Positions 4,278 to 32,728 of a stretch of 32,789 bases of DNA are shown here, in pieces (the stretch's first letter is position 1; each line of letters opens with the position of its first letter). Made by a program: the position numbers and the translations under genes. Below the pieces are notes generated by a model that was given only the letters and a program-made list of their open reading frames with translations, was not told the origin of the DNA and searched no databases. The stretch lies in the IMG/VR virus record IMGVR_UViG_3300020733_000803, positions 1 through 32,789 of that record. The stretch is one strand, 5' to 3'. The stretch is from a virus.

Positions 4278-4976
4278 ATGCAAGTTCAAGAACTATCCGT
4301 CGAACCCCTACATCACAATGATACACTGAATCCCTCGCTTTGGGACGGTGAATCACTGCGTCGAGATGTACGCTACAAACTACTACAAATAGCCAAACAT
4401 TTTGCTGAGTTTTTAAATGTAGATCAGCTGAATCTCAAAGACATTACTATTAGTGGTAGCAATGCCAGTTACGGATACAGCAAATATTCAGATATAGATC
4501 TACATCTAGTGGTAGAGCATGTAGGCGATCGCGAAGAGCTCTACCAGGCCAAAAAGAATCAATATAATTTTACCTACGATATCACTCTTAACGATATCCC
4601 TGTTGAACTGTATGTACAGGACAGCAAACAACCACATCATTCAGCTGGAATCTATTCAGTATTAGATAACAAGTGGCTAAGCAAGCCCAACCCTGATCGC
4701 CCAAAAACACACCCAACAGAAATTAAAAGCAAGGCACGTAACTTTTCCGGCCTAATCAACCAAGCTATACGAAGCGAAGATCTAGAACGTTGCAGAGCGA
4801 CTATGGAAGAAATACGTAGATTGCGTAAAGCGGGACTAGAGCGCAGTGGCGAAGACAGTGTAGAAAACTTAGCATTTAAGTTGCTCAGAGCTAGGGGGCA
4901 GATAGACAAATTGCGTAAATACATAACTAAACTAGAAAGTGCTGAATTAAGCCTTGGAGAACACAATGAAGATTAA
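4278..4976 (+). CDS. Second nucleotidyltransferase-fold protein (232 aa)
   Basis: Shows the polymerase-beta nucleotidyltransferase signature: SGSN (G60-S61), SDIDLHLV (D72, D74) and IPVELYV (E110 as the third acidic residue). The C-terminal part, from about residue 150, is mostly charged helix (EEIRRLRKAGLERSGED, LLRARGQIDKLRKY). The N-terminus MQVQELSVEP resembles those of four other proteins in this window and may be a head-targeting peptide. No Shine-Dalgarno is visible. The stop overlaps the start of the next gene, so they are co-translated. The substrate is unknown; a similar gene occurs near head genes of related phages. Confidence 0.75.
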   Translation: MQVQELSVEPLHHNDTLNPSLWDGESLRRDVRYKLLQIAKHFAEFLNVDQLNLKDITISGSNASYGYSKYSDIDLHLVVEHVGDREELYQAKKNQYNFTYDITLNDIPVELYVQDSKQPHHSAGIYSVLDNKWLSKPNPDRPKTHPTEIKSKARNFSGLINQAIRSEDLERCRATMEEIRRLRKAGLERSGEDSVENLAFKLLRARGQIDKLRKYITKLESAELSLGEHNED

Positions 4977-5901
4977 AGACCTATTAGGTGAAGATGACAC
5001 CCTAAAATCTATTAGCGGAGACAAGGCTGTAGTCAATATGGGTGGACAAGATCAAGAAATCGCTACAAAGGATCTAATTCCAGGAGCACAGCCTAATACA
5101 ATTACTATCAAACCTACTGATCCTAACCAATTAAAACCTGGCATGAAAGTGTCTACTTCAGGCGAGCAAACTAGCGAAGAGCAGGGCGAAGAAGAATGGA
5201 GTCACGATCTAGTTGCTCAGGGAGATCACGATGTAGGCGGAGATGGAACTGATCAATTTATCCGCGATATTTCTGTACACCCGCATGTCAAGGGTACGTA
5301 TGAATATGAAGAAGAAGCGGCAGATCCTAATCAGCAAGCTCAACAAACTATTGGGCAACTGACTGCACAACCAGCTCCAACATCGGCTCCTACAGATACA
5401 GATGGTCCGGGCTATTCATTTGATAGTGCCAAAGGATTCAAAGATGCTATCAGCAAAGATTTAGGTAGTAAAGATCCAGAAATAAATGCACAAATTGATA
5501 AACTAGTAGCGGCAGAGCCTGATGGTACGGTTGACGTTGATCAAACACTTTACAACATGATAAATGTAGCTGACAATGAAATCATGCCTGCAATGCTTAA
5601 TTTTGTCAAGCAAATGATTGATTCATTTACACAGCTTACTAAGAGTCCCGAATGGTCACAAGTTAGTCCAGCAGATCAGGCCAGTGTATTACAGAGTATT
5701 AAAGACATGCAGGCTAGTCTTCCAAAAATAGAGCAGGCAGTTGCAGATGCACATGCTGAATTTGAAAAGAACAAAGGCATGATGCAACAAAACATTAAAG
5801 ACCGTAAGATGAATCAGCAGTTAAAGGGAACCCCTGCAACAATGTCAGAAGCTGATCGTCAAATGTTAGAAAAGATGCGTATGATCGCAGGCCTACGTTA
5901 A
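4966..5901 (+). CDS. Acidic head-region protein, possible capsid-internal (311 aa)
   Basis: The start was set at MKIKDLLGED because GGAG lies just before it and the upstream ATG at 4954 has none. The protein is very acidic, Gln/Asp/Glu rich, with a low-complexity centre (QQAQQTIGQLTAQPAPTSAP) and helical C-terminal half ending MLEKMRMIAGLR. It has no catalytic motif. The N-terminus contains LGE at residues 7-9, which fits the L-x-E cleavage rule of the T4 prohead protease. Acidic low-complexity proteins with such an end are typical of internal or scaffold proteins, so this is the best guess. It overlaps the nucleotidyltransferase gene by 11 bases. Confidence 0.6.
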   Translation: MKIKDLLGEDDTLKSISGDKAVVNMGGQDQEIATKDLIPGAQPNTITIKPTDPNQLKPGMKVSTSGEQTSEEQGEEEWSHDLVAQGDHDVGGDGTDQFIRDISVHPHVKGTYEYEEEAADPNQQAQQTIGQLTAQPAPTSAPTDTDGPGYSFDSAKGFKDAISKDLGSKDPEINAQIDKLVAAEPDGTVDVDQTLYNMINVADNEIMPAMLNFVKQMIDSFTQLTKSPEWSQVSPADQASVLQSIKDMQASLPKIEQAVADAHAEFEKNKGMMQQNIKDRKMNQQLKGTPATMSEADRQMLEKMRMIAGLR

Positions 5902-5902
5902 A

Positions 5903-6112
5903 ATGAAAATCAACGAACTGTTAGGTGAGTTTGGTATCTGGACTACTAGAGAAGAAGAAGCTCTATTAGAAAAACTACAGCGTCCTGTAAAGATATCTGC
6001 TCTAGAAGAACACGAACAGTTCATAATCCAGGCCATGATCCGTAAAAGTTTGGTAACTAAAGTAGGGCACGAAGATCCTAAAGTAGTTGCAAATGAAAAA
6101 ACATTCACATAA
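5903..6112 (+). CDS. Conserved small phage protein (69 aa)
   Basis: Begins MKINELLGEFGIWTTREEEALLEKL, one base after the previous stop, and overlaps the next gene by 20 bases. It resembles a 65-70 residue hypothetical known to me from T4-like cyanophages (ELIG-FGIYT-EE...REQFVI..LIRKSLVTKV). The RKSLVTKV block is present at residues 48-55. The fold looks like a small helical or winged-helix domain, but no function is known. It shares the residue 7-9 LGE motif with its neighbours. Confidence 0.7.
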   Translation: MKINELLGEFGIWTTREEEALLEKLQRPVKISALEEHEQFIIQAMIRKSLVTKVGHEDPKVVANEKTFT

Positions 6113-6607: not shown

Positions 6608-7609
6608 ATGCAAATTAGAGATCTTTCAAAACCAATCACAGCTCAGTCACTTAACGAGAGCTTGAGTAAGAAATTTGGCTACAAGCTAAATTTAGAACAA
6701 TTTACCGATGTGCAATTAGAAGATGCACGTAACAAACTGCGTACAAAAATCAGTCAGTTTGAAGTCAGTGAGAGCTTTGACAGCGTGAACGAAAGTCCAG
6801 CTTACCAAAAAACACGTCTTATGTTAGACTGTGTTAATCAAGAAATCCTTGAGCGTGAAATGACCCCTGCAGACAAGTCTAAAGAAAAGAATTTAAAGGC
6901 TAAGTTTGATAAATCAGATATGAAAAAATCTATGAAGAAACAATACGGTGAAAACAAAGGCAAACAAATTTATTTTGCAACTATCCGTAAAAAGGCAATG
7001 GATCATTCAGTTCCAGAAAGCTGGATTGATTCAGCAATTAATCGTATGAGCTTAGGCGAAAGTGATCAATCAGAACTAATAGCAGAACTAACAACACGTT
7101 ACGATTTAAACGAAAATACAGCAAACTATATTCTATATCTAGCAGAAGGTGAATCCGAGAAAGCAGAAGTTATTATGGCTACAAAAGATATGGTTGACCA
7201 AATTACTGGTTGGCTAGAAGATGTTGCCGCAATGAAATCAGAGCACTTGCTAGAATTAATGGACTCTATAAGAGAAAACTTTGGCAGTGATGTCGCACAA
7301 AAATATGAACAAGCAGTAAAGCCTGCATTAGATCAAATCTATTCAGCAATTGAACAAGCACGTTCAGGCATTACCTCAGGCCTATCAATTGTATCAGGCG
7401 GCGAAGCTGACACGATGGGTGCAGAACCAACCCCAGATGCTGGATCTCCAGACATGGGTGGCGCACCAGACATGGGTGGCGCACCTGACATGGGTGCAGA
7501 ACCTGCTCCAGAACTACCTGCTCCAGAAGCAGAAGCTGGTAGAGAAAAACGTGAGTCAGTAGACTACAGTCGTCGACTAGGCATTTTGTTAAACTCAAAA
7601 AAAAAGTAA
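6608..7609 (+). CDS. Prohead-core-like structural protein (333 aa)
   Basis: An N-terminal domain (FGYKLNLEQFTDVQLEDARNK, SESFDSV..SPAYQKTRLMLD) is followed by a basic block at about residues 95-135, a helical region (MVDQITGWLEDVAAMKSE), an Ala/Pro/Met/Asp-rich linker with three PDMGxA repeats, and a C-terminal REKRESVDYSRRLGILLNSKKK. Related proteins in pelagiphages and cyanophages share the helical part and the DREKRES..RS-RLG end, and I recall them annotated as virion or core proteins. Highly charged composition and a low-complexity linker suit an internal scaffold. The N-terminus MQIRDLSK belongs to the shared targeting-like group. Length is larger than usual because of the linker and basic insert. 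Confidence 0.65.
   Translation: MQIRDLSKPITAQSLNESLSKKFGYKLNLEQFTDVQLEDARNKLRTKISQFEVSESFDSVNESPAYQKTRLMLDCVNQEILEREMTPADKSKEKNLKAKFDKSDMKKSMKKQYGENKGKQIYFATIRKKAMDHSVPESWIDSAINRMSLGESDQSELIAELTTRYDLNENTANYILYLAEGESEKAEVIMATKDMVDQITGWLEDVAAMKSEHLLELMDSIRENFGSDVAQKYEQAVKPALDQIYSAIEQARSGITSGLSIVSGGEADTMGAEPTPDAGSPDMGGAPDMGGAPDMGAEPAPELPAPEAEAGREKRESVDYSRRLGILLNSKKK
7451..7504 (+). repeat. Three 18-bp tandem repeats in the core-like gene
   Basis: Three consecutive units start with GACATGGGTG at 7451, 7469 and 7487. The first two differ by one base and the third diverges at its end. They encode PDMGGA-type hexapeptides in the linker, so copy number changes keep the frame. Likely a slippage-prone flexible linker. 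Confidence 0.85.
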
Positions 7610-7962: not shown

Positions 7963-8679
7963 ATGACACTATTAATAGAACGATATAACTACACACCCAT
8001 TAGTAGGGAAAGTGTAGAGGGCAAGCGTTTATACGCAACACCAGATGGTTCCAAAGTTCCTAGCGTAACCACAATCTTAGACAAGACTAAACCTCGAGAA
8101 AAAGTTGAAGCCTTGATGGCTTGGAAAAAACGTGTTGGCGAAGCCAAGGCACAAGAAATTGTTACTGAGGCCGCCAGCCGTGGAACACGTATGCACAAGT
8201 TCCTAGAAGACTATATCACAACTAGCATTATCAACGAGCCGGGAACTAATCCTTACTCAGTACAAAGCCACAAGATGGCCAAATGTATTATTGAAAACGG
8301 ACTCAAAAATGTTGACGAAGTATGGGGTGTGGAAGTGCCCTTATACTATCCAGGATTGTATGCAGGCACCACAGACTGTGTAGGAGTTCATTCTGCTGAT
8401 CCGGCAATTATGGATCATAAGCAGACTAACAAGCCTAAGAAAGAAGAATGGATTGAAGACTACTACTTACAAATGGTAGCCTACGCTCTTGCACACAATG
8501 AAGTACATAAAACAAACATTCGCAAAGGTGTTGTGTTTATGTGCGTTAAACCGCCTGAAATCAGCCCTTTAGTCTGGGGTGAACCTAGTTACCAAGAATT
8601 TATACTGAAACCCGAGGATTTTAGCTACTGGGAAGCTAAATGGTGGGATAGGGTGGAACAATACTACGCACAAAACTGA
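7963..8679 (+). CDS. PD-(D/E)XK exonuclease, RecB/Cas4-like (238 aa)
   Basis: The catalytic core is visible: GTRMHKFLEDY (residues 74-84), GVEVPLYYPGLYAGTTDCVG with D138, IMDHKQTNK with D151-x-K153, and Q170-x-x-x-Y174 in YLQMVAYAL, the arrangement of RecB-family nucleases. The N-terminus YNYTP...PSVTTIL is typical of the phage exonuclease group seen in T4-like cyanophages. It probably degrades DNA ends during host DNA breakdown or recombination. There is no clear Shine-Dalgarno. A TAAGTT/AACTTA inverted repeat (7941-7958) lies just in front and could be an operator. Confidence in the fold is high, the exact role moderate. Confidence 0.85.
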   Translation: MTLLIERYNYTPISRESVEGKRLYATPDGSKVPSVTTILDKTKPREKVEALMAWKKRVGEAKAQEIVTEAASRGTRMHKFLEDYITTSIINEPGTNPYSVQSHKMAKCIIENGLKNVDEVWGVEVPLYYPGLYAGTTDCVGVHSADPAIMDHKQTNKPKKEEWIEDYYLQMVAYALAHNEVHKTNIRKGVVFMCVKPPEISPLVWGEPSYQEFILKPEDFSYWEAKWWDRVEQYYAQN

Positions 8680-8685
8680 TAAATA
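8678..8685 (+). promoter_or_regulatory. T4-type late promoter box
   Basis: GATAAATA with predicted start near 8691, placing AAGAGGA in the short leader before the ATG at 8706. Confidence 0.65.
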
Positions 8686-8705
8686 TCCAATAAGAGGATA
8701 TTTTC

Positions 8706-10607
8706 ATGGCCGTTGTACAAATCTCAAGAATCCAGATACGTCGTGGTAAACTTAATAGTGGCACAGGCCTACCGCAGTTGGCCAGCGGAGAACTAGCTTG
8801 GACTACTGACACGCAAGAATTGTTTATTGGTAATGGCGCAGTTTCAGAAGGCGCTCCGGCTGTAGGCAATACTAAAATTATTACTCAGAATGACCTTGCT
8901 GTCAACGGTAATATCTACAATATTATTCAGTATGTTTACAAGGCAACTGATGCAACTATACAAACTGGACCTAGTGCAAACGCACCTGTTGTTCAAACTA
9001 TCCAACAAGTACTAGACAAACAAATAGATACTAGTGATTTTGGAACTGCTGGTGATGGATCAACTGATGACACAGCGGCAATACAGCGAGCTATCGATCA
9101 GTTATTTTTAAATCCAACTGCACCTGCTAGTGCAGGAACTGTTGGCGCTACTACTAAACGTGTAATATTGCAAATGCCTGCTGGACAGTTTAATACATCT
9201 AGCACTATCTATATTCCAAGCTATGCAAGCCTAGTAGGCGCTGGTGCTGACAAAACTATTATCTATTATAACCCAGTGAAATCAGTAATTGGTACAGTTA
9301 CGCTTAACAGTGCTGTGATACAATCAGTACAGGGAACAAGCAACATGGTTGGCGGCACGATATCTGGTGCTGGTATCCCTTCCGGAGCAACTATTGTAAG
9401 CGTAATACCTGGCACTAGTATTACTATCAGTGCCGCCGCTACTGTAACTACTATTAGTACAACACTGACAGTTACATTGGCAGGAGCGGCTATTCAATTT
9501 GTCAACGACAGTTCTACTCCTGGATCACCAAGTACACTAGGTAGCACACTAGGTGCAACACAGCCACGTAATATTTTAATTAAAGATTTAACTATCCATA
9601 CACCAACTGGTAAAAATACTTGCCTACAATTAGATGCTGTTAAAGACAGTAGATTTGAAAATCTAAACTTACAAGGTGATTGGAACGCAAGTCTCAATGC
9701 ATTGAGTCGCGGTATATTAATGCAGGCAGTAAGCTCGCTTGTAACCTGCGAACATAACATATTTAGAAATATTAAATTTACTAGTTTCAGCTATGGTGTG
9801 TTTGCCAAACAAGATATCTTAAACAATTCATTTGAAGATTGTTATTTTACAGACGGATATCAAGGCATCAGTCTAGGAGCAGGAGCCGACGGCGGTTCAG
9901 TTGGACAGCAGTATGGACCTCGTGAAACAGAAATATTTAACAGCAAATTTTATAATATTCGCAGACAAGCTGTCTATATTGAACTAGGCACAGGTAATTC
10001 AACTAGAGATTGCAAGTATACCAACGTAGGATGTAATGGTGGAGGCAACGTTGCCGCGCAATATCCACAAGTGTATTTTGCCACATACGGCAACACGAGT
10101 CAAAATGATCGCAGTGACAGACCAAATGATTTGTCTGCAAGTAATTTGACAACTCAGTATGTACCAGAAGTATCCGGACATGGGACATACGCCTTACAAG
10201 GTTCTAGAAGTTTTACAATCAGCTATATTACAAATGCCGCAACATTAGGATTTAGATTGCCTTGCTCAACAACAGCATCAGGCTTACCAGCTGGATCAAT
10301 TATTTTTAAAATTGATTACATTTATAAGAGCACTGCTAATAACTTTACTCGCCGTGGAGTTATGACTATTGCCGCCGACATTGATGGTAAACAACTTCAA
10401 TTAAGCGACGACTATGACTTCGCAGGAACAGATGTAAGTGGCACTACTGCACTCATTTTAGATTTTAAAGCATACTTCTTAGATGCTAGCAGTAATATCT
10501 ACACTGGTGCGAATGGTCAGGCTCTAACATCAATTGGTGTGTTCTATACCAATAACCTAAACGGCGATACTGGAACTTTCTCCTACTCATATACTGGCAA
10601 TTTATAA
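8706..10607 (+). CDS. Tail fibre / tailspike with pectate-lyase-type beta-helix (633 aa)
   Basis: The N-terminal 45 residues carry IQIRRG...GELAWTTDTQELFIGNG, the attachment module seen at the start of many phage tail and tropism-determinant proteins. From about residue 110, DFGTAGDGSTDDTAAIQRAID is the signature start of pectate lyase 3-type right-handed beta-helices, which continue with repeated NNSFEDCYFTDGYQGI-style turns. The C-terminal part is a Thr/Ser-rich beta domain. Such proteins bind, and often cleave, surface polysaccharide of the host. A low-complexity Thr/Ile/Ser stretch lies near residues 215-260. It is transcribed from its own late promoter. An 11-bp inverted repeat spans the stop codon. 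Confidence 0.85.
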   Translation: MAVVQISRIQIRRGKLNSGTGLPQLASGELAWTTDTQELFIGNGAVSEGAPAVGNTKIITQNDLAVNGNIYNIIQYVYKATDATIQTGPSANAPVVQTIQQVLDKQIDTSDFGTAGDGSTDDTAAIQRAIDQLFLNPTAPASAGTVGATTKRVILQMPAGQFNTSSTIYIPSYASLVGAGADKTIIYYNPVKSVIGTVTLNSAVIQSVQGTSNMVGGTISGAGIPSGATIVSVIPGTSITISAAATVTTISTTLTVTLAGAAIQFVNDSSTPGSPSTLGSTLGATQPRNILIKDLTIHTPTGKNTCLQLDAVKDSRFENLNLQGDWNASLNALSRGILMQAVSSLVTCEHNIFRNIKFTSFSYGVFAKQDILNNSFEDCYFTDGYQGISLGAGADGGSVGQQYGPRETEIFNSKFYNIRRQAVYIELGTGNSTRDCKYTNVGCNGGGNVAAQYPQVYFATYGNTSQNDRSDRPNDLSASNLTTQYVPEVSGHGTYALQGSRSFTISYITNAATLGFRLPCSTTASGLPAGSIIFKIDYIYKSTANNFTRRGVMTIAADIDGKQLQLSDDYDFAGTDVSGTTALILDFKAYFLDASSNIYTGANGQALTSIGVFYTNNLNGDTGTFSYSYTGNL

Positions 10608-23736: not shown

Positions 23737-25647
23737 ATGAGTAAAATCATCGGTATCGATTTAGGTACAACAAATAGCTGTGTAGCAATCGTAGAAAACG
23801 GAATTGCTAAAGTAATCGAAAACAGCGAAGGTGCTAGAACAACACCATCAATCATTGCATATACCAAGGACGAGATCCTAGTTGGTGCAACAGCAAAACG
23901 ACAAGCAGTCACAAATCCAAAGAATACAATTTACGCAAGCAAGCGTCTTATTGGACGTAAGTTTGATGAGCAAGCAGTACAAAAAGACATTGACCTAATG
24001 CCATACACTATTATCAAAGCCGATAATGGTGATGCATGGATCGAAGCCAATGATCAAAAACTAGCGCCACAGCAAGTGTCAGCTGAAGTACTACGCAAAA
24101 TGAAAAAGACTGCCGAGGACTATCTTGGAGAGGAAGTAACTAAGGCTGTTATTACAGTTCCTGCTTACTTTAACGATAGTCAACGCCAAGCAACCAAGGA
24201 TGCAGGTAAGATTGCAGGTCTAGAAGTTCTACGTATCATTAACGAACCGACAGCGGCCGCACTAGCATACGGTGTTGATAAAGAGTCTAAGAAAGACCGT
24301 AAGATTGCTGTATATGACTTAGGTGGTGGTACATTTGATATTTCAATCATCGAAATTGCCAACATTGACGGCGACAAGCAAATTGAAGTATTATCAACAA
24401 ACGGCGATACATTCTTAGGCGGTGAAGACTTTGACCAAGTTCTAATGGATCATTTGGTTGCAGAATTCAAGAAAGATTCAGGTATGGATCTAAAAGCAGA
24501 TGTACTTGCTCTACAACGTTTGAAAGAAGCCGCTGAAAAAGCTAAAATTGAATTGTCATCAAGTCAAAGTACAACAGTTAACTTGCCATATATCACAGCA
24601 GATGCTAGTGGTCCAAAACACTTGAATGTAACTATTAGCCGTAGTAAGTTTGAAGGTATGGTTGAGAAACTAATCGAGCGTTCAATTGAGCCATGTAAAA
24701 CAGCTATGGCAGATGCTAAGGTATCAGCCGGCGACATCGACGAAGTTATCCTAGTTGGTGGACAAACACGTATGCCTAAAGTACAAGAAGCAGTTGAGAA
24801 ACTATTCGGCAAGGCTCCACGTAAAGACGTTAACCCAGACGAAGCTGTAGCCGCAGGTGCCGCAGTACAAGGCGCTGTGTTAGCAGGCGATAAGACAGAC
24901 GTTTTATTGTTAGACGTTACACCATTAACATTGGGTATCGAAACAATGGGCGGTGTGTTTACCAAATTGATTGCTAAGAACACAACTATCCCAACTAAGC
25001 ATTCACAAACATTCTCAACAGCAGAAGATAACCAACCAGCTGTAACTATTAAGGTTGCACAAGGTGAGCGTGAGTTGTTCAAGTATAACAAAATGTTAGG
25101 TGAATTCAATTTAGAAGGTATTGATCCTGCTCCACGCGGCTTGCCACAAATTGAAGTTACCCTAGACATTGACGCTAACGGTATCTTGAATGTAAGTGCT
25201 AAGAACAAAACAACTGGCAAAGAAAACAAGATCACTATTAAATCTGATTCAGGATTAACAGAAGCTGAAATCGAGCGTATGGTTCGTGAAGCTGAAGAAA
25301 ATGCCGAAGCAGACAAAAAGGCAGCTGAATTGATCAATACTCGTAATCAAGCAGAAGGTGCTGTACATAGCCTACGCAAAGATTATAACGAGCACAAAGA
25401 CAATTTAGACATTGCCGATCGCGAGTCTATGGATTCTGCTTTCGAAGCAGTCGAAACTGCAATGAAAGGAGAGGACGTAGAAGCTATCAATACAGCCGTT
25501 CAAAAGCTGTTTGAAAGCTCAACACCTTTACAAACTGCTAAACAAGCCGCCGAAGCCGCTAAGACCAAGGCCGCCGAAGAAGCACCAAAGGAAGGTGAAG
25601 TAGTTGACGCTGAATTCAAAGAAGTTGACAGCGACGACAAGAAGTAA
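23737..25647 (+). CDS. dnaK: Hsp70 chaperone DnaK (636 aa)
   Basis: ATP-driven chaperone. Complete: phosphate-1 motif [13 protein letters not shown], phosphate-2 [14 protein letters not shown], adenosine motif [14 protein letters not shown], the linker [13 protein letters not shown], a substrate-binding domain and a lid ending [10 protein letters not shown], the usual DnaK tail. The length of 636 is typical of bacterial DnaK. No dnaJ or grpE in the window, so it would use host partners. Full-length DnaK is rare in phages. It might also serve IscU (LPPVK motif). A late promoter and two stem-loops precede it. Confidence 0.97.
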
Positions 25648-25659
25648 TATAATAAAAAA

Positions 25660-25716: not shown

Positions 25717-26148
25717 ATGGCAACAATGCAACTAAGAGCAATCGATCCAGCTCACTTGGCAAACCTAAGTAGAGCTCTTGTAGGTTTTGATACAATCTTT
25801 AATCAACACTTACAGCAACAAAATGGCAACTATCCTCCACATAACATTGTGAAGTATAGCGATAGTGAATATGCTATCGAAGTAGCAGTAGCAGGATTTA
25901 GTAAAGAAGAAATCACAGTACAAGTTGATCAAGATCAATTGATTGTACGCGGAGTTCAAACAAATAAAGATAACGATACTAAAGAGTATCTGCATCGTGG
26001 ACTTGCTAGCCGTGATTTTGAACAAAGCTATACACTTGCTGAGTATATGGAAGTCAAGGACGCTGAGGTAAAAGACGGTATGCTGATCATCAGTATCGAA
26101 CGTATCGTGCCAGAAGCATTACAACCACGTACTATACAAGTTAAATAA
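25717..26148 (+). CDS. hsp20: Small heat shock protein Hsp20 (143 aa)
   Basis: ATP-independent holdase. A short N-terminal arm (FDTIFNQHLQQQ) leads into an alpha-crystallin domain: NIVKYSDSEYAIEVAVAGFSKEEITVQVDQDQLIVRG, ending in DGMLIISIERIVPEA with the G-x-L motif, and a C-terminal QPRTIQV tail. The pattern is IbpA-like. T4-like cyanophages carry related genes. A strong AAGGAG lies before the ATG. A stem-loop (26155-26172) follows the gene. Confidence 0.93.
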   Translation: MATMQLRAIDPAHLANLSRALVGFDTIFNQHLQQQNGNYPPHNIVKYSDSEYAIEVAVAGFSKEEITVQVDQDQLIVRGVQTNKDNDTKEYLHRGLASRDFEQSYTLAEYMEVKDAEVKDGMLIISIERIVPEALQPRTIQVK

Positions 26149-26154
26149 TCAAAC

Positions 26155-26172
26155 GGGGGAGGCGACTCCCCC
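26155..26172 (+). terminator. GC-rich stem-loop after hsp20
   Basis: GGGGGAG (26155-26161), loop GCGA, CTCCCCC (26166-26172). Very stable GNRA-type loop but no T-run follows, so it may be a Rho-assisted terminator or 3' stabiliser. Confidence 0.6.
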
Positions 26173-26221: not shown

Positions 26222-26524
26222 ATGCCAAGTACCGATATTCAAATCGACGAGAAAGTCAAAGTGATTGTAACAGAACCTAAACGTTGGAAGGTCATCTTAC
26301 TAAATGATGACACAACACCAATGGAGTTTGTAATATCGTTGTTAGTTGATATATTCAAACATAATCCAGAAAGCGCCGAGCATGTTATGTTGCAGGTGCA
26401 CGAAACTGGATCAGGAATCGCTGGAATATATAGTTTTGAAATTGCAGAAGCCAAAGCAGTTGAAGCAACTAATACTTCTAGAACTAAAGGTTATCCATTG
26501 CAAATTAAATTGGAGGAAGAATGA
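26222..26524 (+). CDS. clpS: Clp protease adaptor ClpS (100 aa)
   Basis: ClpS delivers N-degron proteins to ClpAP. The core WKVILLNDDTTPMEFVISLLVDIF matches the family, with N28-D29-D30 and H60 in MLQVHETGSGIAGIY as the pocket residues, and the C-terminal PLQIKLE end. Length and motif order are normal. The start has no clear Shine-Dalgarno. The stop overlaps the heme oxygenase start (ATGA), so they are translated together. A viral ClpS could redirect host proteolysis. Confidence 0.95.
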   Translation: MPSTDIQIDEKVKVIVTEPKRWKVILLNDDTTPMEFVISLLVDIFKHNPESAEHVMLQVHETGSGIAGIYSFEIAEAKAVEATNTSRTKGYPLQIKLEEE

Positions 26525-27075
26525 GCCTCCGAGAACTGACTAAAGACGCACACACAAATGCCGAGCGTCAAGAATTTGTAAAAATTCTTTTTAGTGGTAA
26601 AATTAATCCAAAAATTTACGCAACATTTTTAAAAAATCAACATCCGATGTATGAGATTTTAGAAGTGTGTGCTATGCCGCATGGACTATTACACGGGCTT
26701 CCAGATATTCGTCGTGCTCCTGCAATTAACAGTGACTTCATAGAATTGTGGGGATCCGAAGAAAAAGAAAAACCTCAAATTTTACCAGTCACTGATCGAT
26801 ATATCAAGCACATACTCAGTATCAAAGATGATCCTAAAAAACTTATGGCGCATATCTATGTTCGCCATATGGGAGATCTAGCTGGCGGACAGATGATTGC
26901 TAAAAAAGTTCCAGGCAGTGGTCGCATGTACCAATTTGAAGATCCCGAAGGCCTTAAAGTCGCTATCCGTGAACGAATCAGTGATGATATGGCCGATGAA
27001 GCAAAAGTATGTTTTGAGTTCGCCGCTCAACTGTTCAAAGAAATGCTAGAAGTTGTAGAGTACACAGATGAGTAA
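26521..27075 (+). CDS. hemO: Heme oxygenase (184 aa)
   Basis: Opens heme to biliverdin with release of Fe(II) and CO. The proximal His is probably H11 in LTKDAHTNAERQEF, and the distal helix HMGDLAGGQMI (G118-D119-L-A-G122-G123) is the family signature. Length is at the low end, like HemO of bacteria. It overlaps clpS by four bases and the bilin reductase by eight, indicating one operon. Cyanophages carry ho1 with pebS; here the partner is a PcyX-like reductase. Released iron could serve the viral Fe-S and ribonucleotide reductase proteins. Confidence 0.93.
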   Translation: MSLRELTKDAHTNAERQEFVKILFSGKINPKIYATFLKNQHPMYEILEVCAMPHGLLHGLPDIRRAPAINSDFIELWGSEEKEKPQILPVTDRYIKHILSIKDDPKKLMAHIYVRHMGDLAGGQMIAKKVPGSGRMYQFEDPEGLKVAIRERISDDMADEAKVCFEFAAQLFKEMLEVVEYTDE

Positions 27076-27748
27076 AGTTTGGGATACTCTAATAAATATT
27101 CAACATTTATTGGAGACCGAGTTTGGCAGGACTGGCATTGAAATCTTTGAGCCTGGAATGGATCGCTTCAATCAGCCTGGCTGGACTAATAGAGTCTGGG
27201 CTAGTGATCTGTATCGCCGTGCCCACGTTGATGTGGTTGATGCGCGAGATCAAAAAGGACTCTGGATGATGCATTGTTGCATCTTTCCGCATACACACAA
27301 TCCTGCTCCAATTTACGGCTTTGACGTTATAGCTGGTAAGAATAAAATTACTGGCTGTTTTCACGATTATAGTTCTGCTGGCAATCCTAATCACCCTATG
27401 ATACAATGGTTTGGTGAAGAAGTTGCTAAACTCGAATGGCGCAGAGAACGTGAATTGCCCGAGTGGGCACAGCGTATTTTTACCAAGCATATGGTTGCCG
27501 CTGGTAACGTGCAAGATGAAGCAGAACTAGAACAAATCACTAATCTAGCTCGCACAACTCTAGCACACTATTTAGAAACCGTAGGTGAAACTAATAATAC
27601 AGTAATTAGCACCAAATATGAGCAGAATTTCTATGCCCAAAATCAAAAACAAAACCCACATACACCGCGTGTAATGGCTAGTTTAGGGCTAGATGAAGAG
27701 GATGTACGTGTGTTTATCCAGGAATGCCTGTTCCCCGAAATAGTATAA
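27068..27748 (+). CDS. pcyX: Ferredoxin-dependent bilin reductase, PcyX/PcyA-like (226 aa)
   Basis: Reduces biliverdin to a phycobilin using ferredoxin. The family core is visible: RRAHVDVVDARDQKGLWMMHCCIFPHTHNPAPIYGFDVIAG, with D86 likely the central catalytic Asp, and the C-terminal YEQNFYAQNQKQNPHTPRVMASLG..DV..FIQECLFPEI, equivalent to the YCQQQ...TRRVLEKAFG end of PcyA/Peb enzymes. PcyX was described from uncultured marine viruses, thought to infect Alphaproteobacteria, as making phycoerythrobilin. The exact product needs a tree or assay. It directly follows heme oxygenase with overlap, giving a two-step heme-to-bilin pathway. Confidence 0.85.
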   Translation: MSKVWDTLINIQHLLETEFGRTGIEIFEPGMDRFNQPGWTNRVWASDLYRRAHVDVVDARDQKGLWMMHCCIFPHTHNPAPIYGFDVIAGKNKITGCFHDYSSAGNPNHPMIQWFGEEVAKLEWRRERELPEWAQRIFTKHMVAAGNVQDEAELEQITNLARTTLAHYLETVGETNNTVISTKYEQNFYAQNQKQNPHTPRVMASLGLDEEDVRVFIQECLFPEIV

Positions 27749-27758: not shown

Positions 27759-28799
27759 ATGCGAATTATTGACGTTCTATCTGAAGATGAATTTGTTCTT
27801 GAAACCCCAGAACAAGTTCGTGCTGACATCATCCAAAAAGTTAACAAGATAGCCGATGAGCCTGATCTTATTAACGTCCTACACTATGCTAACCAATATG
27901 CTTTTAAGAAAGAAGTTGGAAAATTATCAACTGTAAAAGGTTATAAAGAAAATGTTTCTAACATTATTTTACAAGCAGTTGGTAAAGTTCAAGCACCCGA
28001 AGCGCAAGTTAGAGCATTCTTAAAAAGACTAGCCACAGATGGTATTATCAAAGAAAATCTATTATTAACACCCGGTGCTGTACACAGCATGGATCAAATC
28101 GTTGATACTAAATTTTTACCAATGTTCAAGGCCATACAACTTGATCTATTTGAAAAAATATCAGGTAAGATGGGTGAAAAAGGTGACGTAGGTAAAGGGG
28201 AGTACCTACTGTCAATTTTAAGTCCAAGAATTATTCGTCGTGGAGCACCTGGTGATATTGCCATTGCCGATGTTAAAGTAGAATTAAAAGCAGGTCAAAG
28301 TGGACGATTAGGTCCTGCAGGTAGTCAAGCATTGGCAGGTCGTTTTGACGAGTTTATGGCGGCATGCACTAGAGCTAAACTTATTACTCCACAGGCCGCA
28401 CAACAAGCACAGGCTAACCCAACAGCGTTTAATCCATCTTTGAATATGACAGCATTTAGTCAGTTCTTCGGAGCCCATACTAAAAAAGCATTGGCTCATA
28501 TGCTTAAGATGCATTATCCAACTTTAAACACAACAGCAATGGCCAATGCCTGTGTAAATGGAAATGCTATCGACGGTGCGGCTCTTAAAGCTGAAATGTT
28601 AAAAGCATCGTATCATGTATATCAAACAGCCAAAGAGTTTGATGGTATATTACTAACAGATTACGGTATTAACAAATACCTATACATGAACACTCCAGAC
28701 AGTGCCGCACAAGCCGCACCATTCTTGACAGTTAAGTTCCCTAGTTGGACCGACACTCAAAGTAATACTATAAAAATTACCCTCAAGGGTAGAGCATAA
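27759..28799 (+). CDS. Putative PD-(D/E)XK nuclease-fold protein (346 aa)
   Basis: Unassigned protein with a possible restriction-endonuclease-type core: EYLLSILSPRIIRRGAPGDIAIADVKVELKAGQSGRLGPAGSQAL, where an Asp (D167 or D171), then E175-L-K177, would form the D...E-x-K site. The N-terminus MRIIDVLSED has the L-x-E pattern of the head-targeting-like group. The C-terminal half is helical with a YHVYQTAKEFDGILLTDYGINKY segment. It has no Shine-Dalgarno and an exact late promoter in front. If packaged in the capsid it would be a nuclease injected with the DNA, which is speculation. Confidence 0.5.
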   Translation: MRIIDVLSEDEFVLETPEQVRADIIQKVNKIADEPDLINVLHYANQYAFKKEVGKLSTVKGYKENVSNIILQAVGKVQAPEAQVRAFLKRLATDGIIKENLLLTPGAVHSMDQIVDTKFLPMFKAIQLDLFEKISGKMGEKGDVGKGEYLLSILSPRIIRRGAPGDIAIADVKVELKAGQSGRLGPAGSQALAGRFDEFMAACTRAKLITPQAAQQAQANPTAFNPSLNMTAFSQFFGAHTKKALAHMLKMHYPTLNTTAMANACVNGNAIDGAALKAEMLKASYHVYQTAKEFDGILLTDYGINKYLYMNTPDSAAQAAPFLTVKFPSWTDTQSNTIKITLKGRA

Positions 28800-28859: not shown

Positions 28860-28887
28860 ATAATAAGACTTAGTGGGAGCGAAGACC

Positions 28888-29355
28888 ATGTCGAAAAAGC
28901 TATTATTAGCATTAGTACTATTGCCATCACTAACGATGGCAGCACCTCTGAACGACTTTACATTTAAAAGTCCGGCCTTTAATGGCAATGGTTACGGCAC
29001 ATACGTATTAACCATAGAAAACGAACAATACACTCGACAACAAACTATTAATCAAGCAGTACAGGCAGCCGCCCAACAGGCCAAAGCTGACGCGGCCAAC
29101 ACTCCAATTAATCAGTTTTTAACAAACTTAGAATCACGTATCTACGCACAGATTAGTCAAAACACAGCAACAGCTATGTTTAGTGGCACTTCAAGTACTT
29201 GCGTAAGTTCAGCGGCTTGTTCATTCCAATTTGATGCAAATACAGCAATCAGTTGGTACTGGGCAGGATCGAACATTGTAATGCAAGTTACACAGCCGAG
29301 CGGATCTAGTACTATCACAGTTCCAACTGGATCATTTAATATGACTGGACATTAA
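28888..29355 (+). CDS. csgF: Curli assembly protein CsgF (155 aa)
   Basis: CsgF docks at the outer face of the CsgG pore and guides curlin nucleation. The start MSKKLLLALVLLPSLTMA is preferred over a GTG at 28873: GGGAG lies before it and it gives a normal Sec signal, cleaved after TMA. The mature N-terminus has DFTFKSPAFNGNGYGTYVL, the CsgG-plug segment (F-x-F-x-x-P-x-F-G/N-G), then a helix TPINQFLTNLESRIYAQI and a C-terminal beta region ending ITVPTGSFNMTGH. Length is slightly longer than the E. coli 138. It is the first gene of the curli operon and is followed after one base by csgG. Confidence 0.9.
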   Translation: MSKKLLLALVLLPSLTMAAPLNDFTFKSPAFNGNGYGTYVLTIENEQYTRQQTINQAVQAAAQQAKADAANTPINQFLTNLESRIYAQISQNTATAMFSGTSSTCVSSAACSFQFDANTAISWYWAGSNIVMQVTQPSGSSTITVPTGSFNMTGH

Positions 29356-29356
29356 G

Positions 29357-30499
29357 ATGAAAAAAACATTACTTGCCCTAGCCATTCTTACAGCATTAAG
29401 CGGTTGTGCAGTTACACAAAAGATGGGTGTAGAGTACAAGCCAGAAGTTGCAGAACGTAAACTACAAAAAGAATTTGATACAATACCTACACCAAACGGT
29501 CCAAAGGTCACTGTAGCAGTTTATAGTTTTAAAGATATGACTGGACAGCGTAAAGCTGATGCCAAGTATGCTAGTTTTTCAACAGCAGTTACGCAAGGTG
29601 CTGAACCATTCTTAATCAGCGCACTACAAGATGTTGGACACGGCACATGGTTTGATGTTGTTGAACGTGTTAACATTGATAATTTAATTAAAGAACGTAC
29701 TATTATCAAGCAAATGCGTGATATGTATGAAGGGCCAAATGCCAAACAGTTGATGCCATTGCAGTTTGCAGGCATTATTATTGAAGGTGGCATTATTGGC
29801 TATGATAGTTCGAGCGAGAGTGGCGGTGCCGCATACCGTTGGTTAGGCATTGGTCCACAGACTCAATATAGCAAAGATATCGTTACCATTAGTCTACGTG
29901 CTGTTAGCGTAAACACTGGTAAAGTGCTGGCAACTGTATCAGTTACAAAGACTGTATACAGCACAGCAGATAGTTTTGCTATGTTGAAATTCTTCAACGA
30001 TGGCACACAAGCCTTTGAAGGAGAAACTGGATTAACTATTAACGAACCCGGCACCTTAGCAGTTAAAGCAACTGTTGAAGCCGCAGTAGTTGAGTTGATT
30101 AAAGAAGGACAACGCAAGGCTGTGTGGGACTTTAGAGAACCACCTAAGCCAGTAGTGTTGAATAAAATTGAAGAAGCGGCGCCTGTAGTAGCTGAAGCAC
30201 CTAAACCACAACCAAAAGTGGCCGAAGATATGGCAGTGAAAGAAGGTATAGCTCCTCCAGTTGTAACTAAAAATGACCCACCACCTGCTGAGGAAATAAA
30301 GTATCTTAAATCAGCGGCCTATTTGTATGCAAAACCTGAGTTAGGCGCACAAAAACGCTGGCAGTTGAAAGAAGGTACACGTTTAAATGTTAAAGTTAAT
30401 GACAAGGGATGGTGGTTTGCTAAGGACGACAATGGACATGGCGGATATGTCCAAGAAAATGATTTAACAGGCGAGGTAAAAGCAGTAACCAAAAAATAA
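29357..30499 (+). CDS. csgG: Curli secretion pore CsgG with C-terminal SH3-like domain (380 aa)
   Basis: CsgG is a nonameric outer-membrane lipoprotein channel for curlin. The lipobox LSGC17 is clear. The core follows E. coli: VTVAVYSFKDMTGQRK, FSTAVTQGAEPFLISALQD, WFDVVERVNIDNLIKERTII, LMPLQFAGIIIEGGIIGYDS, GIGPQTQYSKDIVTISLR and EGETGLTINEPGTLAVKATVEAAVVELI. Beyond the usual end (about 285) there is an Ala/Pro-rich linker and a region (about 312-375, AAYLYAKPELGAQKRWQLKEG...GGYVQENDL) like a bacterial SH3 domain, which could bind cell wall. This extension is not in E. coli CsgG. Confidence 0.93.
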   Translation: MKKTLLALAILTALSGCAVTQKMGVEYKPEVAERKLQKEFDTIPTPNGPKVTVAVYSFKDMTGQRKADAKYASFSTAVTQGAEPFLISALQDVGHGTWFDVVERVNIDNLIKERTIIKQMRDMYEGPNAKQLMPLQFAGIIIEGGIIGYDSSSESGGAAYRWLGIGPQTQYSKDIVTISLRAVSVNTGKVLATVSVTKTVYSTADSFAMLKFFNDGTQAFEGETGLTINEPGTLAVKATVEAAVVELIKEGQRKAVWDFREPPKPVVLNKIEEAAPVVAEAPKPQPKVAEDMAVKEGIAPPVVTKNDPPPAEEIKYLKSAAYLYAKPELGAQKRWQLKEGTRLNVKVNDKGWWFAKDDNGHGGYVQENDLTGEVKAVTKK

Positions 30500-30517
30500 C
30501 AAGAGGACTTAGGTCCC

Positions 30518-30561
30518 AGGAGCAGTGCCAGAGATTAGAAATTTGGCACTAGAACAATATG
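30518..30561 (+). promoter_or_regulatory. Hairpin bringing the curlin ribosome-binding site to its start codon
   Basis: AGGAG (30518-30522) is 36 bases before the ATG (30559). AGTGCCA (30524-30530) and TGGCACT (30544-30550) pair, so folding out 27 bases leaves nine between AGGAG and ATG, the optimal distance. No nearer Shine-Dalgarno exists. Confidence 0.6.
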
Positions 30562-31422
30562 GTTCAAAGTAAAAAAGGCGCTGGCAGTTTGTCGAGAAAA
30601 GTAACTGCAATGCTCGTGTTGTCTGCAATGGCAACATTGGCGAATGCGGCTGATAATAGCATCTATATTAATCAGTCTGGTAGTAGTAGCACAATTAACA
30701 TGACACAAGATGGCGCAGGCAACGTAGTGCGCGGAGTGCAAGGAGTTGGTGGCGGCAATACTACACCAGCAACAATCAACGGTGATAGTAACACAGTCAA
30801 TGTGACACAATCTGGTACAGGTAGTACATTAAACTTTGGTATTCAAACTACCATTGCTAATGGTTCTCCTTTGCAGAATGGTAATACATTTGATTATAGT
30901 GTAACTGGTAACAACGCTACAGCAACTATTGATAGTAACAACAATGGTGCTGGAACTAGTGCTAGTAACTATTTGAATGTTACTCAAGCTGGTAACTATG
31001 CTGGATTAAATGCCAACATTTTAGGTAGTAACAACAGTATCACAGCATCAACAGCTGGCGGCAGTAACAATACTATTGTAACAACTACTAATGGTAACAG
31101 CAATACACAAACTATTGCAGTAACTGGCGGTGGTGCTAACTCTGTAACTATTAATCAAGGTATTGGCGGAACAGCAGTAGCCAGCGGTAACACAGCAACT
31201 ACTAACAACAATGGTGTGGTAAACCTTACTATCACTGGTGCAAGTAACACCGTAGCTATTGCACAAACCAGTGCTGGTTATGCTGATACAACTGTACTAG
31301 CATTAAACGGTAGTAACAACAATGCAACTATTGTGCAAAATGCAAGTGCTGGTAACACAACAGTGAATGTACAAAGCACTGGTAGCAGTAACACATTTAA
31401 TATCCACAGTAATGCACATTAA
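30559..31422 (+). CDS. csgA: Curlin-repeat amyloid subunit, CsgA/CsgB-like (287 aa)
   Basis: A signal peptide (SRKVTAMLVLSAMATLANA) precedes curlin-type repeats: NQSGSSSTINMTQDGAGN, DSNTVNVTQSGTGSTLNF and many later NxxxIxQxGxxN-like units, with Asn/Gln/Ser/Thr/Gly dominating. Curlin repeats stack into amyloid beta-solenoids on the cell surface. At 287 residues it is about twice the E. coli CsgA, and the repeats are less regular. CsgA versus CsgB cannot be decided. It overlaps the next gene (TAATG). Confidence 0.85.
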   Translation: MVQSKKGAGSLSRKVTAMLVLSAMATLANAADNSIYINQSGSSSTINMTQDGAGNVVRGVQGVGGGNTTPATINGDSNTVNVTQSGTGSTLNFGIQTTIANGSPLQNGNTFDYSVTGNNATATIDSNNNGAGTSASNYLNVTQAGNYAGLNANILGSNNSITASTAGGSNNTIVTTTNGNSNTQTIAVTGGGANSVTINQGIGGTAVASGNTATTNNNGVVNLTITGASNTVAIAQTSAGYADTTVLALNGSNNNATIVQNASAGNTTVNVQSTGSSNTFNIHSNAH

Positions 31423-31595
31423 TGTATAACGGTCAATTCTTGCAAATGATGTATCAGCAATGGTGTAATGGTAATGACTCATACACTTATGCTTGGAAAG
31501 ATTTTGTAGAATTGGCCGCTAGACATAATGCAGTTACAACAGAGTTAATGTTAGAAGAACTAAAAAAGTATAGCTGGTTCAGCTGGAGGGATTGA
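31422..31595 (+). CDS. Small protein between curlin and FecR genes (57 aa)
   Basis: The ATG shares its A with the curlin stop and its TGA overlaps the next ATG (TGATG), so it is a real member of the operon despite its size. The sequence MYNGQFLQMMYQQWCNGNDSY, WKDFVELAARHNAVTTELMLEELKKY and WFSWRD is aromatic-rich, soluble and helical, with no signal peptide. I recognise no family. It may be cytoplasmic and regulatory. Confidence 0.75.
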   Translation: MYNGQFLQMMYQQWCNGNDSYTYAWKDFVELAARHNAVTTELMLEELKKYSWFSWRD

Positions 31596-32728
31596 TGAAA
31601 TTATGGGTTTTAATTTTTTCGTTACTAATTACATTAAATGCCTACGCTGGAATAGGAACTATAACAGAGCAGGTCAATACACCACCATCTATTGTACGTT
31701 CTAAAACTACACTAACTGGTGCCAAGGGTACCGGTGTTGAAATGGCAGACGCCATTAACACAACCAAAGGCAAAGTAGGTATTACATTTGCTGATGATAC
31801 AAAAGTAGAAGTAAACGAAAACAGTAAACTGGTAATCGACGACTTTGTCTATGATCCTAAATCAAGCAAAGGCGGCAAACTAGCTATGAAGTTTGCTAGC
31901 GGTACTGTCAAGTATGCTAGTGGTGCAATCGCACACAATGATCCCTCCAAAGTAGCTATCAATACTCCAAGTGCAACTATTGGTGTGCGCGGCACTGACT
32001 TTACTGCAACAGTAGATGATGCTGGTGTTAGTACAATTATCTTGTTGCCCAGCTGTCCTATTAATAAAATTATTCGTGACATTGAAGCAGAATGTAAAGT
32101 AGGAAAAATTGAAGTTTATAATGATGCAGGTAGTGTCATGCTAGACAAAGCATTTCAAGGCACTAAAGTAGAAAGTCGCGGCGTTGCTCCAATGAAACCC
32201 GCTGTATTAAAATTATCACTAGATACCATTAATAATTTATTGATTGTTAGTCCACCGTCAGAATTAAACAAGAAAGATAAGATAGAATCTCAGACTAGAG
32301 TATTACAAGTAGGAGATATGCTGGCCGTAAATTATCTAAAACAAAATTTCTTAGAAAACGAATTTCAAAAAGAAGGTCCTGTTTGGGATAACCCTCTAAC
32401 TAAACCACTACTACAACAATACTTCTTAGAAGATATTTTCAATATTTTAAGCCAACAGTTGCAACAAGAAGCCGCGGCTCTGTTGAGTAATCAACTAAGT
32501 CCACAGGCACAATTATTTCCAGATTGGTTTAAAGCCAGTCTAGTTACTAAAGAAGTAACACCTACAACAGCAACACTATGTCGCCCAGACGGCAGTAGTA
32601 ACGTAGCTTGTATCAGTGTACCCAAAGATCAAAATACAACAACTTTTATTCAACAAGCAGACGGCGTGAATATTAAGAACCGTATTAATGCTGGCGGCAA
32701 TACTATTATTACACTAAAGCAGAATTAA
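31595..32728 (+). CDS. Secreted FecR-domain protein (377 aa)
   Basis: The ATG at 31595 (overlapping the previous stop) is preferred over a TTG at 31592. A signal peptide (MKLWVLIFSLLITLNAYA) is followed by a FecR-like beta domain at about 45-150: TTKGKVGITFADDTKVEVNENSKLVIDDFVYDP, GKLAMKFASGTVKYASGAI and the signature VAINTPSATIGVRGTDFTATV. The rest is a helical, Gln-rich region (QQYFLEDIFNILSQQLQQEAAALL). Such periplasmic FecR proteins are found near secretion and adhesin genes. The role in the curli operon is unknown. Confidence 0.85.
   Translation: MKLWVLIFSLLITLNAYAGIGTITEQVNTPPSIVRSKTTLTGAKGTGVEMADAINTTKGKVGITFADDTKVEVNENSKLVIDDFVYDPKSSKGGKLAMKFASGTVKYASGAIAHNDPSKVAINTPSATIGVRGTDFTATVDDAGVSTIILLPSCPINKIIRDIEAECKVGKIEVYNDAGSVMLDKAFQGTKVESRGVAPMKPAVLKLSLDTINNLLIVSPPSELNKKDKIESQTRVLQVGDMLAVNYLKQNFLENEFQKEGPVWDNPLTKPLLQQYFLEDIFNILSQQLQQEAAALLSNQLSPQAQLFPDWFKASLVTKEVTPTTATLCRPDGSSNVACISVPKDQNTTTFIQQADGVNIKNRINAGGNTIITLKQN

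Follow-up and report, generated by a model that had tools for sequence, protein, structure and literature searches.

A heme oxygenase and PcyX-type bilin reductase gene pair behind clpS and chaperone genes in a T4-like phage

Introduction

The pair of a heme oxygenase (HO) and the bilin reductase PcyX is already known from phages. In the marine hemO-pcyX cassette the HO gene overlaps the gene for PcyX_EBK42635 (structure 5owg), which has Asp55, His69, Asp86 and Asn196. Asp55 was called PcyX-specific and catalytic, and PcyX was described as so far limited to marine viruses (PMC11480375). PcyX supported less phycoerythrobilin (PEB) than PebS in cyanobacteria (PMC13197396), and alphaproteobacterial PcyA together with phage PcyX forms the 'AX lineage' (PMC10151467). 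PebS of cyanophage P-SSM2 is a phage four-electron reductase making PEB. HO also overlaps PcyX in the Pelagibacter phage Mosig EXVC030M (Mosig_00054/00053), a T4-like phage of a heterotroph, and the freshwater phage CB_2 carries hemO, pcyA/X and valaS (Wegner et al. 2024, PMC11480375).

Here we analysed the whole stretch of a 32,789-base IMG/VR virus record (the window), which is a fragment of a large T4-like phage genome. Its locus is the published hemO-pcyX cassette. HO and PcyX overlap as in the marine system and in Mosig, and the four residues, the clade and the predicted fold are those of the marine enzyme. What is new is the strict pairing of HO and reductase, plus a setting of clpS, dnaK-hsp20 and a promoter, without a light-related partner in the sampled relatives, in the PcyX subclade of the window. 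Our reading, which we hold with a probability of about 0.85, is that the cassette would convert heme to biliverdin and then to PEB with the help of host ferredoxin, as an early and coupled unit that may bring the phage an iron or heme gain.

HO and the bilin reductase occur as a pair

The HO gene (hemO, 26521-27075, + strand) encodes 184 amino acids and matches PF01126 Heme_oxygenase with an E value of 8e-26, while pcyX (27068-27748, + strand) encodes 226 amino acids and matches PF05996 Fe_bilin_red (E 1.5e-12). Positions 27068-27075 are common to both reading frames, which confirms the gene pair and the eight-base overlap reported in a preliminary description of this DNA.

A scan of viral contigs in IMG/VR returned 380 relatives, and 79 loci were kept. 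HO was upstream of the reductase in all 79; the genes overlapped in 78, and one locus had a tryptophan-halogenase-like gene between them. Among marine PcyX loci with room upstream, HO was present in 78/78 and overlapped the reductase in 75. When HO was used as the bait, we found the reductase within about 1.5 kb in 76/76 loci with room. Across these three overlapping searches, whose sets (79, 78 and 76) share some contigs, no phage contig large enough to hold the two genes had one without the other. The phage reductases with Glu55 likewise lie directly behind an HO. The habitat labels 'marine' and 'window-type/freshwater' of the IMG/VR contigs are our assumption, based on metagenome identifiers and group membership. 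Chance is excluded as the origin of the ORF pair, because 79 further IMG/VR loci have the same pair, the catalytic residues are conserved and dN/dS is low.

Several contigs showed variations of the cassette. In L022, HO and PcyX are separated by a flavin-dependent tryptophan-halogenase-like gene (8506-10053; PF04820, E 7e-84), and carbon-nitrogen hydrolase (nitrilase-like) genes take this place in L179 (4916-5971), L180 (5108-5971) and L268 (1707-2618). L180 and L268 have 2OG-Fe oxygenases there as well, and HO is present twice in L268. L031 carries two divergent, inverted clpS-HO-PcyX blocks on one contig (9453-10681 and 16803-18021), which may stem from a duplication or from chimeric assembly.

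The reductase is assigned to PcyX

In a maximum-likelihood tree the window enzyme fell into a 100/99 clade with 5owg, the Mosig enzyme and marine phage sequences. The sister of this PcyX clade were the Falsiroseomonas enzymes, the nearest bacterial relatives found, followed by cyanobacterial PcyA, with PebS as the outgroup. This placement agrees with the 'AX lineage' of PMC10151467. Within the PcyX clade, the window enzyme belongs to a subclade beside the marine one; it is 47% identical to PcyX_EBK42635 and 49% identical to PcyX of Mosig, whose HO is 47% identical to that of the window. In a second tree with distant phage reductases added, all Asp55 sequences stayed together in one PcyX-type clade, again with 100/99, and six Glu55 phage sequences fell outside. 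The phylogeny, which the preliminary description had proposed as a check, thus places 27068-27748 inside the ferredoxin-dependent bilin reductases.

The reductase has Asp55 (27230-27232), His69 (27272-27274), Asp86 (27323-27325) and Asn196 (27653-27655). The first three are invariant among the 63 distinct window-type sequences and the 58 marine ones; PcyA and the Falsiroseomonas enzymes have Glu at position 55. An assignment to PcyA was rejected on the tree and on Asp55, which stands in place of the catalytic Glu (Glu76 of Synechocystis PcyA). PebS was rejected on the tree, where it is distant, and on Asn196, which replaces its second central Asp (Asp206 of PebS); at positions 69 and 196 PebS has Asn and Asp, whereas the window enzyme has His and Asn. 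The second catalytic Asp had also been singled out for checking, and Asn at this site is what PcyA and PcyX have.

The best PDB sequence match was PcyX_EBK42635 (5owg, E 3e-66), compared with E 4e-12 for PcyA. The AlphaFold model of the reductase (pLDDT 94) also matched 5owg best (rmsd 1.5), ahead of PcyA, PebB, PebA and PebS. By the tree, the Asp55/His69/Asp86 signature and the best structural match of the model, the reductase is assigned to PcyX, in agreement with the PcyX-like character first proposed. Homology to the characterised enzymes points to PEB as the product, and two residues near the active site alone do not fix the product of a reductase. Enzymes of the Asp55 type turn out to be common in a large second lineage of phages. 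One reductase inside the PcyX clade (L329, 3001-3477) has Val at position 55 and offers a natural test of Asp55.

HO is conserved in its active site and varies more than the reductase

The HO has the HO-1 type signature, with the proximal His11 (26551-26553) and the distal GDxxGGQ helix, here GDLAGGQ (G118-D119-L-A-G122-G123-Q124, Asp119 at 26875-26877). H11 is kept in 160/161 sequences and G118, D119, G122 and G123 in all 161, and the protein matches solved HO structures with E values down to 3e-13. In moderately diverged pairs the reductase had a median dN/dS of 0.095 and HO one of 0.146; both values are approximate because synonymous sites are near saturation in many pairs. In 19/79 loci HO is less than 45% identical to that of the window while the reductase is still more than 75% identical. 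In L041, HO has 35% identity and the flanking genes 76-83%, which suggests that HO was replaced in place.

The pair lies in a dnaK-hsp20-clpS-HO-pcyX gene block

The gene dnaK (23737-25647, + strand) encodes an Hsp70 of 636 amino acids (PF00012, E 6e-256) and hsp20 (25717-26148, + strand) a small heat-shock protein (PF00011, E 5e-18); they were present in 76 and 77, respectively, of the 81 loci compared. They are followed by clpS for the Clp protease adaptor (26222-26524, + strand; PF02617, E 5e-29), whose binding-pocket residues N28, D29, T32, P33 and H60 are invariant in 97 sequences. The order dnaK-hsp20-clpS-HO-pcyX, then a divergent gene and then a CsgF/CsgG/FecR block, is conserved. While the window-type loci stand behind clpS and dnaK-hsp20, clpS preceded HO in 0/67 marine PcyX loci with room, and the neighbours of the Mosig pair are 2OG-Fe oxygenases, ferrochelatase and neck genes. 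Our literature search found no paper in which ClpS, DnaK and heme oxygenase are linked to each other in phages.

The clpS stop and the HO start share four bases (ATGA), as seen in 68/79 window-type loci. GGAGG is found before the HO start, and upstream of the pcyX start there is no clear Shine-Dalgarno sequence, which fits translational coupling of pcyX to HO. The hsp20 start is preceded by AAGGAGAT. A sigma-70-type promoter, TTGACA-N17-TATAAT (25625-25653, + strand, 12/12 match), is positioned 64 bases upstream of hsp20. A promoter score of at least 11/12 was reached in 40/61 distinct upstream regions of relatives and in 3.2% of random 160-base windows. Some of the -35 box falls within the coding sequence of dnaK, which makes this conservation partly coding; the -10 box lies outside dnaK. 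We regard 25625-25653 as the putative early promoter of the unit. A candidate T4 late promoter, TATAAATA near 27744, was left out of the argument, since the window has 2 such sites and 3.5 are expected by chance.

Between hsp20 and clpS there is a strong hairpin, GGGGGAG-GCGA-CTCCCCC (26155-26172, + strand; -16.1 kcal/mol, z -2.96). It has no U-run on the + strand and is terminator-like on the - strand only; it is possibly an RNA processing site or a partial terminator. Eleven bases past pcyX starts a fast-evolving gene of 346 amino acids (27759-28799, + strand), for which we do not claim membership in the pathway. It had no Pfam or PHROG match and its structure model (pLDDT 45) was too poor to use, and divergent homologues occupy the same position in relatives. 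The protein possibly has a nuclease-like fold and a T4-like N-terminal signal. Its family shows a D...ExK pattern like that of PD-(D/E)XK nucleases, and an N-terminal motif (MRIIDVLSE, MKIKDLLGE, MKINELLGE) shared by 27759-28799, 4954-5901, 5903-6112 and 6608-7609 resembles T4 capsid-targeting sequences.

Partner genes in relatives

We observed alaS in 9/23 relatives, apart from the HO-pcyX pair, and none was seen in the 32.8 kb window fragment. The separate position matches the broken cassette of PMC11480375, and CB_2 follows the same cassette logic with alaS apart. Fer2 ferredoxin, flavodoxin, PHY, GAF and psbA were found in none of the 23 sampled relatives, an absence that is suggestive only because these records are mostly incomplete fragments; the same search finds psbA in P-SSM2, and Mosig, unlike the sampled relatives, has a Fer2 ferredoxin. 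Phycobilisome genes gave weak matches only, inside giant ORFs of 2,300-4,100 amino acids. This absence of photosynthesis genes among the sampled relatives supports the earlier interpretation. The phytochrome-like target suggested in the preliminary description did not appear, as none of the relatives has a PHY or GAF domain, though the host may have such a receptor.

Proposed role of the cassette and its alternatives

We infer the enzyme activities, the product and the timing as follows. HO would open host heme with O2 to give biliverdin IXalpha, Fe2+ and CO, and PcyX would reduce biliverdin by four electrons to the pink pigment PEB. Host ferredoxin would supply the electrons, as neither a ferredoxin nor a flavodoxin gene turned up in the sampled relatives. 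If translation couples clpS, HO and pcyX and the sigma-70 promoter drives them early, heme turnover would begin at takeover. The gain is most likely the recycling of heme iron together with the removal of heme in takeover, a view that we hold weakly. One reason for making the bilin may be that free biliverdin serves poorly as an end product; alternatively, the reduced bilin may have a light-independent use of its own. Since the reductase was present wherever a locus had room to show it, the bilin step itself is under selection.

Iron might be the whole gain, as HO could supply it for Fe-S assembly, ribonucleotide reductase and 2OG-Fe oxygenases with the reductase being incidental. The window contains IscU, IscA-like, TauD-like and NrdA/NrdB genes, some relatives have 2OG-Fe oxygenases between the HO and reductase genes, Mosig has them upstream of HO, and iron supply is discussed in PMC11480375. 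However, HO alone would suffice for this, and yet the reductase was present in 76/76 HO loci with room. It also has the lower median dN/dS (approximately 0.095 against 0.146), and it is HO that diverges or is replaced more (below 45% in 19/79 loci whose reductase exceeds 75%). The strict pairing speaks against iron as the sole gain, and so does the tighter constraint on the reductase; we consider this alternative unlikely. The preliminary suggestion that iron may be the main gain is weakened by the same two observations, and iron stays a part of our reading.

It seems quite improbable to us that the bilin serves as chromophore in a light sensor of the host, a phytochrome or a bilin-binding globin through which the phage alters the host's light response. 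Such a use would fit the position of hemO, pcyA and alaS beside a phytochrome gene in Bradyrhizobium ORS278 (PMC11480375), the bilin-binding globins encoded in pre-PcyA clusters (PMC10151467), and Falsiroseomonas enzymes as the nearest bacterial relatives found. The sampled phages, however, showed no PHY or GAF domain. Moreover, phytochrome photoswitching requires a C15 double bond and PEB lacks one. We see a slightly smaller chance still that the reductase is functionally PcyA with phycocyanobilin (PCB) as the product. PCB is the product of the same cassette in the freshwater phage CB_2 (PMC11480375), Glu55 phage reductases exist beside HO, and the sole NCBIfam match of the reductase is the PcyA model, though at 78 bits it is far below the 206-bit cut-off. 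But Asp55, which the CB_2 enzyme lacks according to its published description, replaces the Glu of PcyA in the window enzyme as in every close relative, and the tree joins the window to characterised PcyX and leaves the Glu55 phage sequences outside. Maintenance of phycobilisome pigments in a cyanobacterial host, the accepted role of cyanophage hemO and pebS (PMC11480375), is highly improbable here, as psbA was found in 0/23 relatives by a search that detects it in P-SSM2, phycobilisome genes gave nothing beyond the weak matches in giant ORFs, and Mosig, the closest isolated phage that has the pair, is a phage of Pelagibacter.

The heme-to-PEB reading that we prefer could be extended to a light-independent tetrapyrrole takeover by clpS-HO-pcyX, although we give this speculative idea a low probability. 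Phage ClpS would turn host Clp proteolysis on hemoproteins or on enzymes of the heme pathway, HO and PcyX would drain the heme set free to iron and PEB, AlaS, where present, would resupply the pathway past host feedback, and the bilin would have an unrecognised function in non-phototrophic cells. The idea comes from the position of clpS and from Salmonella and plastids, where glutamyl-tRNA reductase is known to be under Clp control (PMC7966870). With HO and reductase strictly retained next to ClpS and chaperones and no light partner seen, it becomes directly testable why phages that infect heterotrophs produce phycobilins.

Phage genome and host

A Gp23-type capsid was present in five large relatives, which are therefore T4-like. 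A bacterial genome was rejected for the window, since it is a virus record. Its CsgF, CsgG, IscU and IscA-like genes are phage genes, so the curli and Fe-S genes, pointed out in the preliminary description, describe no bacterium. The phage probably infects a non-phototroph. A search for AmoC (pmoC), directed at a methanotroph host, gave no match in 18 records, nor in the control genomes, and so carries no information on the host.

The hsp20-clpS-HO-PcyX block of phages is also carried by three MAG contigs labelled Halobacteroidaceae, Neomarinimicrobiota and Rickettsiales (L178, L179 and L180), which for this reason are most likely mis-binned phages. Melnitz and pelagimyophages are reported to be without csgA and csgB (PMC9004378). 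Within 28873-32728 the window encodes a near-complete curli-like set, which comprises CsgF, CsgG, a FecR protein and, at 30559-31422, a protein with curlin-like repeats.
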